From Aquimarina sp. MMG016 (GTDB lineage: Bacteria > Bacteroidota > Bacteroidia > Flavobacteriales > Flavobacteriaceae): DNA of 64,000 bases. The DNA lies in NCBI RefSeq assembly GCF_018100805.1, contig NZ_JAGJEA010000001.1:620001-684000 (forward strand). The letters run 5' to 3'. Position 1 is the stretch's first letter, and each line of letters starts with the position of its first letter. Positions 18,344 through 20,814 of the stretch are shown here, piece by piece. The position numbers and the translations under genes are program-made. Under the pieces are notes generated by a model. That model made no database searches and was not told the origin of the DNA. It saw only the letters and a list, made by a program, of their open reading frames with translations.

Positions 18344-20410
18344 ATGAGCACAGAAGGAAGATATACCATTACAGCAGCATTACCATATACAAACGGACCA
18401 ATTCACATTGGTCATTTGGCAGGAGTTTATGTTCCGGCAGATATTTACTCTAGACATCTAAGAATCACCGGCAATGATGTTGCTTTTATATGCGGAAGTG
18501 ACGAACATGGTGCTGCTATTCCAATGCGTGCTCGTAAGGAAGGTGTTTCTCCACAAGTAATTATCGATAAGTATCACTCGATTATCAAAAAATCTTTTGA
18601 AGACTTTGGGATATCTTTCGACAACTACTCCAGAACCTCTGCTCCTATTCATCATGAAACAGCTTCAGAGTTTTTCAAGAAGTTATATGAAGACGGCAAG
18701 TTTATCGAAGAAACTTCTGAACAATTATATGATCCTGAAGCAGAACAATTTCTGGCTGATCGTTTTGTAACAGGTACCTGTCCAAAATGTGGAAACGAAG
18801 AAGCCTATGGGGATCAATGCGAAAACTGCGGTAGCTCACTAAACGCAACAGATTTAATAAATCCAAAATCTACGATTTCTGGTGCAAAACCAACATTAAA
18901 ACAAACCAAACATTGGTTTCTCCCATTAGATCAATATGAAGATTTCTTAAAAGAATGGGTGCTAAAAGGTCATAAAAAAGATTGGAAAACTAATGTATAT
19001 GGCCAAATCAAATCCTGGGTTGATGATGGATTACGTCCACGTGCAGTAACAAGAGATCTGGATTGGGGAATTCCCGTTCCTGTTGAAGGTGCAGAAGGAA
19101 AAGTATTGTATGTGTGGTTTGATGCACCAATTGGTTATATCTCTTCTACCAAAGAATGGGCAGCAAGAGAAGGAAAAGATTGGGAACCATATTGGAAAGA
19201 TAAAAACACAAAACTTGTTCATTTTATAGGAAAAGATAATATCGTTTTTCACTGTATTATTTTCCCAAGTATGCTGAAAGCTGAAGGAAGTTATGTTTTA
19301 CCAGAAAATGTACCTGCAAATGAATTCTTAAATCTCGAAGGAAATAAACTATCTACTTCTAAAAACTGGGCAGTTTGGTTACACGAGTATCTTGAAGAAT
19401 TTCCGGATAAGCAAGATGTATTAAGATATGCGTTAACAGCTAATGCTCCAGAAACTAAGGATAATGATTTTACCTGGAAAGATTTCCAGGCACGTAATAA
19501 TAATGAGTTAGTAGCCATTTTTGGAAATTTTATCAATCGGGTAGTTGTCTTAACCAATAAATACTATGATGGGGTTATTCCTACTCCAGGCTCTTTTTCT
19601 GAAGTTGATGAACAAATTTTAACCGAACTAAAAGCATATCCAGCTGTAATTGCTAGTTCCATAGAACGTTATCGGTTTAGAGAAGCTAGCCAGGAACTAT
19701 TAAACGTCGCAAGATTAGGAAACAAATATCTAGCTGATGAAGAACCCTGGAAACTCATCAAAACTGATGAAGAGCGAACTAAGACCATCATGTACGTCGC
19801 ATTACAAATCGCTTCTGCTTTAGCTACGCTATCAGAGCCATTTTTGCCATTTACAAGTATAAAACTAAGATCTATTCTTTGTCATTCTGCACTTGATGCA
19901 GAATCTACTTGGAATGAAATTGCAATTAAAGAAGTACTGCTTCCTGCAGGTCATCAAATCGAAAAAGGAGAATTATTATTCTCTAAAATTGAAGATGCAG
20001 AGATCCAAAAACAATTAGATAAACTAGAAGCTACTAAAAAGGCTAACGAAGCTGAAAACAAAGAAGTAGAACCACAGAAAGATACTGCTACCTTTGAAGA
20101 TTTTACCAAATTAGATATGAGAGTTGGTACTATTGTTGAAGCAGAAAAAATGCCTAAGGCTAAAAAGTTACTTGTGCTTAAAGTAGATACAGGCATCAAT
20201 ACCAGAACGATCGTTTCAGGTATTGCAGAGCATTTTACTCCAGAAGAAGTCCTAGGTAAAAAAGTAACCGTTTTGGTAAATCTAGCTCCTAGAAAATTAC
20301 GCGGTGTAGAAAGTGAAGGAATGATTCTTATGACCGAAACTCCTGCTGGAAAACTAGTATTCTTAAATCCTGATGAGGATGGTGTGAGTCCTGGGGCAGT
20401 GATAAGTTAA
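18344..20410 (+). CDS. metG: Methionyl-tRNA synthetase
   Basis: A 688-residue class I aminoacyl-tRNA synthetase charging tRNA-Met. The HIGH motif is PIHIGH (residues 19-24), the KMSKS equivalent is KLSTS (335-339), and a zinc knuckle [17 protein letters not shown] lies at about 146-162. The C-terminal 110 residues are the EMAP/Trbp111-like tRNA-binding domain ([21 protein letters not shown], ending [17 protein letters not shown]), typical for Bacteroidota. About residues 513-522 ([10 protein letters not shown]) look like a foreign insertion: they are encoded by a palindromic repeat that is read in frame (see 19878-19906). It lies in the loop between the anticodon-binding helices and the linker, so activity should survive. 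Confidence 0.97.
19878..19906. repeat. Palindromic repeat inside metG coding sequence
   Basis: Perfect 8-bp arms ATTCTGCA (19884-19891) and TGCAGAAT (19897-19904) with a 5-nt loop, flanked by TTTGTC on the left and CT on the right. The outer parts TTTGTCATTC and GAATCT are shared with the inverse of the intergenic copy at 41773-41800. Here it is translated in frame as part of MetG. Confidence 0.65.
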
Positions 20411-20418
20411 ACAATTTA

Positions 20419-20447
20419 AAATGTCTGGTCGAGCGCAGTCGAGACCT
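20419..20447 (+). repeat. 29-bp inverted repeat, left copy
   Basis: This 29-bp sequence (core GGTCGAGCGCAGTCGAGACC) is the exact reverse complement of 20786-20814. Each copy can also fold on itself, pairing GGT and CGA with TCG and ACC around a small bulge. It starts 8 bp after the metG stop and ends 17 bp before the GIY-YIG start codon. Confidence 0.9.
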
Positions 20448-20464
20448 AACTATGAAAATTTAAG

Positions 20465-20785
20465 TTGAAATTATATTATGTATACATACTACAATGTTCT
20501 GATGGTTTAACCTATACAGGGGTTACTAATAATATTGTCAGAAGATTAGAAGAACATCAAAAAGGCTTGAACAAAAATTGTTTTACTTATTATCGTAGAC
20601 CTGTTAAGTTAATCTTTCATCAAGAATTTAATGATATTAATCAGGCTATTTATTTTGAGAAAAAAATCAAGAAATGGAGTGCTAAGAAAAAAATAGCTTT
20701 AGCAAATGATCAATTTGACCTACTTCAAATTTTATCAGAATGCAGAAATGCAACACATTACAATTATAAGCCAGAAGATAGCTGA
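20465..20785 (+). CDS. GIY-YIG nuclease, boxed by inverted repeats
   Basis: A 106-residue single-domain GIY-YIG endonuclease (YhbQ/UPF0213-like). YYVYILQCSDG and TYTGVTNNI are the GIY and YIG elements; the catalytic Arg is in VRRLEEH and the metal-binding Glu in AIYFEKKIKKW. All key residues are present. The start is TTG at 20465; the only nearby ATG (20452) meets a stop after three codons. The stop codon (20783-20785) directly abuts the right inverted repeat. Gene plus repeats form a compact 396-bp unit, 20419-20814. Host-type YhbQ proteins are thought to act in DNA repair. This copy may instead belong with the repeats, by analogy to REP-associated transposases; that is inference. Confidence 0.88.
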   Translation: MKLYYVYILQCSDGLTYTGVTNNIVRRLEEHQKGLNKNCFTYYRRPVKLIFHQEFNDINQAIYFEKKIKKWSAKKKIALANDQFDLLQILSECRNATHYNYKPEDS

Positions 20786-20814
20786 AGGTCTCGACTGCGC
20801 TCGACCAGACATTT
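20786..20814 (-). repeat. 29-bp inverted repeat, right copy
   Basis: Exact reverse complement of 20419-20447, starting at the base after the GIY-YIG stop codon. Bases immediately outside and inside the two copies do not match, so the identity is confined to 29 bp. No flanking target-site duplication is obvious. Confidence 0.9.

Follow-up and report, generated by a model that had tools for sequence, protein, structure and literature searches.

The window, by which we mean the whole stretch of 64,000 nucleotides analyzed here, contains a 396-bp unit (20419-20814) in which a gene for a small GIY-YIG nuclease lies between two 29-nt arms that are 100% complementary and 338 nt apart (Table 1). The initial annotation described the gene as enclosed by perfect 29-bp inverted repeats, and this description holds in its particulars: the arms are complementary at 29/29 positions, 17 bp separate the left arm from the start codon, the right arm starts at the base after the stop codon, and the unit begins 8 bp after metG. 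The unit is a nuclease gene boxed by short tagged hairpins (REPs), and the outward orientation of both tags is the commonest arrangement among homologous loci.

Table 1. Positions of the boxed nuclease gene, its repeats, and neighboring features in the window
Feature	Position	Strand	Basis or remarks
metG, upstream neighbor	18344..20410	+	ORF; name as in the initial annotation, no family search behind it
Second-type REP palindrome in the metG coding sequence	19880..19907	+	TGTC tag, 8-bp stem, 5-nt loop, z -3.9
Left repeat (REP)	20419..20447	+	Inverted pair, 29/29; plan common to related loci
Left REP parts	tag TGTCT 20422-20426; stem GGTC 20427-20430 / GACC 20443-20446; conserved GA 20431-20432, GA 20441-20442		
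GIY-YIG nuclease gene	20465..20785	+	106 aa, TTG start, TGA stop; ORF and PF01541
Right repeat (REP)	20786..20814	-	Reverse complement of the left repeat, tag facing outward
Downstream neighbor, 492 aa	20866..22344	+	ORF

The window protein matches PF01541 at 62.3 bits (cut-off, 22.6), which was the only Pfam family found, and no family for it was found in NCBIfam or PHROGs. Among 45 aligned sequences, Y7, Y17, and E65 are invariant and R27 is nearly invariant; we take the conserved Y, Y, R, and E of the GIY-YIG domain to be its catalytic residues. M1, encoded by the TTG start, is also nearly invariant in the homologue alignment, and the predicted model has a mean pLDDT of 87. The nearest solved sequences and folds are UPF0213/YazA-type proteins (PDB 1zg2, E 4e-22; 1ywl, E 7e-17 by sequence profile). 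In the fold comparison, two UPF0213 structures alone reach an E value of 0.001 or better; the next is Slx1 (E 0.008-0.03). Two YazA-like loci lie between a tRNA methyltransferase gene and rsmI and, unlike the window gene, lack flanking inverted repeats.

Homologues at E 1e-10 or better are present in 36 of the 52 genomes of the genus. For 27 of 30 fetched loci (L043, L052, and L063 were left out), flanks were scored for inverted repeats, which reached a score of ≥12 at 20 loci and at 0/27 far flanks. Mismatched locus pairs also reached this score in 137 of 702 cases, because repeats are similar from one locus to another. A wider set comprised the best 80 loci of at least 557 confirmed relatives in the species collection, which are mostly from Bacteroidota and include one record from Nitrospirae and one from Nitrospinaceae, both metagenome bins. 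Flanking inverted repeats with a score of ≥14 were found at 54/80 of these loci, compared with 5 of 1,115 control open reading frames (mechanically listed ATG ORFs of at least 90 codons, taken from the same 80 loci), and the corresponding values at ≥12 were 64/80 and 47/1,115. The 104 kb that lie no more than 500 bp from the gene contain 220 copies of the REP core, and the remaining 1.33 Mb of these loci contain 42, which makes the core 67-fold denser near the gene. At least one near core is present at 64 of the 80 loci, and a GTC-tagged hairpin lies within 300 bp of the gene at 78 of them. Where REPs are found on both sides, both tags point outward at 40 of 55 loci. At one homologue (L061), the repeats follow the same plan and carry yet another tag; at three others (L039, L040, and L057), the gene and a REP overlap at the gene's end, and the REP sequence encodes C-terminal residues of the protein.

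The pairing could be accidental, or REPs could be abundant after genes in general, with the gene lying where REPs lie. The gene and the REPs do share intergenic space, and the scores of mismatched pairs show how readily similar repeats match, but far-flank controls were positive at 0/27 loci at ≥12 (and at 1/16 at ≥14 in the plasmid and phage set described below), few control ORFs met the higher threshold, and the repeats are strongly enriched locally. Chance pairing and general REP richness are ruled out on these grounds, and we give this explanation next to no credence.

The repeats at related loci share a common plan: a tag, one base, a four-base stem, GA, G, a loop, TC, GA, and the matching stem. 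A search for this plan without fixed tag or stem letters returned 292 matches in the 103 kb beside the gene and 201 in 1.33 Mb, with matches at 79 of the 80 loci (about 0.2 per locus expected from background density alone); the tag was TGTCA in 206 of the 292. Among 256 repeats chosen by tag and TCGA alone, which represent 79 distinct stem combinations, Watson-Crick pairs occupy the four stem positions in 203, 230, 235, and 240 cases (79, 76, 126, and 129 expected if the positions were independent). The base before the first GA, which was not imposed by the search, is C or T in 250/250 GTC-tagged matches, and the base after it is G in 244/250. Tandem sheared G-A pairs in DNA follow a YGAR rule. 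Since the letters flanking the GA fit this rule, the "bulge" of the hairpin may be a tandem sheared G-A motif, which is an inference. The outer stem appears in the minimum fold of 64 (DNA) or 68 (RNA) of 168 distinct REP units, compared with 6 (DNA) and 5 (RNA) when the 3' stems were dealt anew. The stability of the window arms themselves is not significant (DNA folding energy, z +0.4 and +0.25). The hairpin structure is supported by covariation and not by energy. The bulged fold proposed for each repeat in the initial annotation is weak by DNA energy, and its description needs correction: the conserved part of the hairpin is a GA/GA dinucleotide pair together with an outer tag.

Within the genome that contains the window (5.35 Mb in 33 contigs), the window 28-mer was found only at the two boxing sites when up to 3 mismatches were allowed, whereas the 16-nt core was found at 22 sites at the same tolerance (2 for the reversed control). 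This indicates that the exact repeat is not high-copy and that the core is a dispersed repeat. At least three pairs among the core sites are inverted doublets with the TGTC-type tag outside, a form known as a REPIN in the RAYT literature.

The association is clade-specific. In the genus, the REP core was found within 1.5 kb at 18/30 GIY-YIG loci, 2/30 metG loci, and 0/30 Y1_Tnp loci; the first value is an undercount, as other repeat types fall outside the core pattern. It is conceivable that the REPs are moved by a transposase, either unidentified or of the HUH type, and that the GIY-YIG gene is simply carried along as a passenger between two copies, given that REP-rich genomes without a short GIY-YIG gene exist and that Y1_Tnp matches are present in 46/52 genomes of the genus. 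However, canonical palindromes, like the core, were absent from the 30 Y1_Tnp loci examined, and Di Nocera et al. (2013; PMC3733652) likewise found no tyrosine transposase genes flanked by CGTC REPs. A passenger would also not be expected to show clade-specific tags, which occur in 128/131 rows of the table described below. We regard the passenger explanation as improbable, and a link with Y1/HUH transposases is rejected on the absence of both repeat forms from the 30 loci examined. A link with GIY-YIG genes in general was ruled out in the same way, as the core was found at 0/30 fetched loci of other GIY-YIG genes from eleven genomes.

Tags were tabulated against nuclease clade for 146 of 164 loci, the rest having no usable match; some rows represent one gene fetched twice (141 of the 146 differ), and the choice of which tags to class as CG-type was made with the table already in view. 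The TGST nuclease clade has CG-type tags in 14/14 rows, and the other proteins with a profile score of ≥100 (n = 117) have a GTC tag in 113 rows, no tag in 3, and another tag in 1. Among weaker GIY-YIG proteins (n = 15), 14 are without a hairpin of this plan and 1 has an untagged hairpin, although two of the 15 (L028 and L030, both in the window's genome) do have canonical palindromes. The CG-type clade occupies one side of a single branch (SH-aLRT, 100) in a tree that was quick, with few columns and many open forks. The tags of this REP family are TGTC/CGTC, and those of the sister clade are CG-type.

The gene and the repeats also co-occur at the level of whole genomes. Among 396 genomes of the class, at least 5 copies of one REP pattern were found in 59/208 genomes with the gene and 9/188 without it; the pattern covers only some REP types, and copy numbers stay below 5 in 149 of the 208 gene-positive genomes. 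Gene presence was scored from only some of the first-look candidates (often 11), so genes may have been missed, and shared ancestry was not removed from the comparison. Within the genus, cores are more numerous in the 36 gene-positive genomes than in the 16 gene-negative ones (Mann-Whitney, P = 0.0002). One genome that remains in this test, G022, gave 52 control matches, and its 64 sites are therefore not trusted. The initial annotation had raised the possibility of a repeat-nuclease partnership and had named a widespread repeat without a link to GIY-YIG genes as an outcome that would refute it. The 67-fold enrichment and the difference between 59/208 and 9/188 genomes run counter to that outcome, and the partnership is supported and reaches far beyond this genome, with binding and cutting only inferred.

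Two of the 16 gene-negative genomes of the genus nevertheless have 28 and 29 cores. When these two and the nine exceptions in the class were searched for the GIY-YIG family, only long GIY-YIG frames were found in G089, G096, G235, and G416 (the last also with a 115-aa match below the cut-off), and short GIY-YIG genes of other types in the remaining genomes. G089, a single contig, has 215 tagged REPs, which in 400 kb sampled (L277-L296) are mostly doublets 43-57 bp apart, and its GIY-YIG frames are only of 609 aa and 460 aa. The enzyme may have been lost from this genome, or another enzyme may serve its REPs.

The location of the unit after metG is not general. Among 30 metG loci of the genus (49/52 genomes have metG; 19 were outside the sample), a GIY-YIG profile match was found nearby in one, the window's own, so that a second refuting outcome, the presence of the gene at metG in all relatives without repeats, was not met. 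A related gene does follow metG in G013 (L041), which was not among the 30 loci. In Chryseobacterium, a unit follows valS at 7/30 loci, as judged by eye with confirmation by profile, and species with and without it are intermixed among relatives in which the following gene has 90-94% identity to the query; one of the 30 loci is a contig end (L344). Among these units, one has an early stop (L336). In a further unit (L342), the GIY-YIG gene is decayed and the upstream REP is broken too. In the Chryseobacterium set (L318-L346), alleles without the unit mostly have another conserved hairpin in its position behind valS, and thus no duplication can be read there. Neither a target-site duplication nor an exact insertion junction was resolved in the Chryseobacterium loci or in an alignment of G033 with G014, in which the aligned parts are about 81% identical and the intergenic junctions are unreadable.

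The gene occupies a shared syntenic position in eight Flavobacterium species, where the REP doublets around it vary, and several Chryseobacterium species likewise share one place. Because of this sharing, the gene is not simply a hopping unit. The nuclease might instead be a caretaker, acting on REP cruciforms and hairpins to cut or resolve them, or using them to regulate its own expression, without spreading them. The fixed position in Flavobacterium and Chryseobacterium is in keeping with such a role, as is the rank of Slx1, a branched-DNA nuclease, as the next fold behind UPF0213, on a weak E value. A mobilizer, however, predicts the interspecies variation seen in REP doublets and arrays, and the change of tag with nuclease clade fits either role. 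We consider a caretaker role unlikely, while leaving it a real place among the explanations.

Di Nocera et al. (2013; PMC3733652) described REPs with a CGTC tag, often TGTC or CCTC, from five phyla, Bacteroidetes among them; most occur as "HH" dimers. The superfamily includes dRS3 of Neisseria and RPE-4/RPE-6 of Rickettsia, and its repeats are said to "apparently lack a dedicated transposase". Since no transposase was reported for them, GIY-YIG genes in plasmid and phage records were examined at 24 loci picked by hand from 59 listed rows (plasmids, 19 + 33 = 52, and phages). Flanking inverted repeats with a score of ≥14 were found at 15/19 proteobacterial loci: Shinella (3), Sinorhizobium (2), Rhizobium CIAT894, Neorhizobium, Novosphingobium, Sphingobium, Azospirillum, Methylobacterium (2), Sphingomonas parapaucimobilis, Neisseria gonorrhoeae, and an Aeromonas-labelled record. 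Most of these have palindromes tagged CGTC or TGTC, and classic CGTC REPs predominate; the Sinorhizobium K101 pair carries a CCTC tag and faces inward, and other repeat types are found in Methylobacterium and Sphingomonas. The four proteobacterial loci without repeats at this score were from Sphingomonas paeninsulae, Salinivibrio, R. tumorigenes, and Photobacterium, the last two of which have tagged palindromes on one side only. None of the five other loci (Planktothrix, two Bacillaceae YazA-like genes, Spirosoma, and a Rhizobium phage) had inverted repeats at a score of 14. In the subset of 16 loci with far controls, the repeats were found at 12/16 loci and 1/16 controls at ≥14. One of the boxed genes, in Azospirillum (L360), lies inside a suf cluster, between sufB and sufC.

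No paper linking GIY-YIG proteins with REPs was found among the literature matches listed; preprints and most subscription papers were not covered, and a prior report is possible. In the accessible part of one article, a RAYT and a GIY-YIG gene are listed separately and no link is drawn between them (PMC9465073).

The window repeat resembles the CGTC REP superfamily, as far as the accessible text describes it, in having a CGTC or TGTC tag at one end, in forming inverted dimers, and in the occurrence of such repeats in several phyla. It differs in form: the superfamily is described there as having an 8-9 bp stem and mostly a CCA tail, whereas the stem of the window repeat is short, with GA/GA, and the CCA tail is absent; the palindromes at L028 and most of the tagged proteobacterial ones do meet the stem and tail form. 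The anatomy of the unit is also that of the REPtrons and REPINs of RAYTs (TnpAREP), in which a gene is boxed by inverted, tagged, imperfect hairpins and the cognate repeats are scattered singly and as inverted doublets. In RAYTs, the type of repeat changes with the clade of the enzyme, according to a 2018 TnpAREP survey, and the same holds for the GIY-YIG REPs. The RAYT enzyme is of the HUH/Y1 type (PF01797) instead of GIY-YIG (PF01541), and its REP tag is GTAG in place of TGTC/CGTC or a CG-type tag.

Sequence comparison shows the association itself, its clade specificity, the stem covariation, the change of tag with clade, the preference for outward tags, and the dispersal as solos and doublets. 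We conclude that CGTC/TGTC REPs have these GIY-YIG proteins as cognate nucleases and that the proteins are a non-HUH counterpart of RAYTs, recognition and cutting being inferred. A REP-specific nuclease is well supported, and its mobilization of the REPs, which is likewise inferred, is the likeliest reading. We assign a probability of roughly 0.7 to the combined view that the protein is a dedicated nuclease of these hairpins that recognizes, cuts, and mobilizes them. Counted against it are the lack of biochemical data, the REP-rich genomes without a short GIY-YIG gene, the weak folding energy, and the lack of a resolved junction.

Under such a mechanism, the protein would recognize the REP hairpin in single-stranded or cruciform DNA and would make a hydrolytic nick at or next to the tag. 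We know of no rejoining activity in the GIY-YIG domain, so copying would need host repair, which would proceed from the freed end. GIY-YIG homing endonucleases are copied by cutting and repair, and this is a possible mechanism here. The I-TevI-type members of that group share their catalytic domain with the window protein, but no intron or intein was seen around the window gene, and its partner is a short repeat. The outcome would be the spread of REP doublets and, now and then, of the whole boxed gene, and in some lineages the gene would be kept at one place, like a domesticated enzyme. A wider proposal is that short GIY-YIG proteins are the missing enzymes of CGTC/TGTC REPs in several phyla, spreading the repeats by a hydrolytic nick at the tag and host-dependent copying, and that they form a second class of REP mobilization unrelated to HUH enzymes, with tags of its own in each clade; here we lean toward acceptance by only a narrow degree. 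If the interpretation is correct, the anatomy of RAYTs is paralleled by a system with a different nuclease fold. The enzyme that moves CGTC-type REPs, which occur in several phyla, was left as an open question in the paper that defined them (PMC3733652), and a small, named candidate makes the question testable with oligonucleotides.

The window's genome contains further repeat types. An array of six canonical palindromes surrounds a second GIY-YIG gene (L028), one canonical palindrome lies near the GIY-YIG gene at L030, and the palindrome within metG is of the same type as the L028 array. When metG genes were aligned, that of G014 had no REP in this part of the gene and that of G033 had a REP of the other type, at a place judged by eye to be the same. 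Overall, three GIY-YIG genes in this one genome (the window gene, L031, and L028) are accompanied by three repeat types, and specificity could thus be mapped within one organism.
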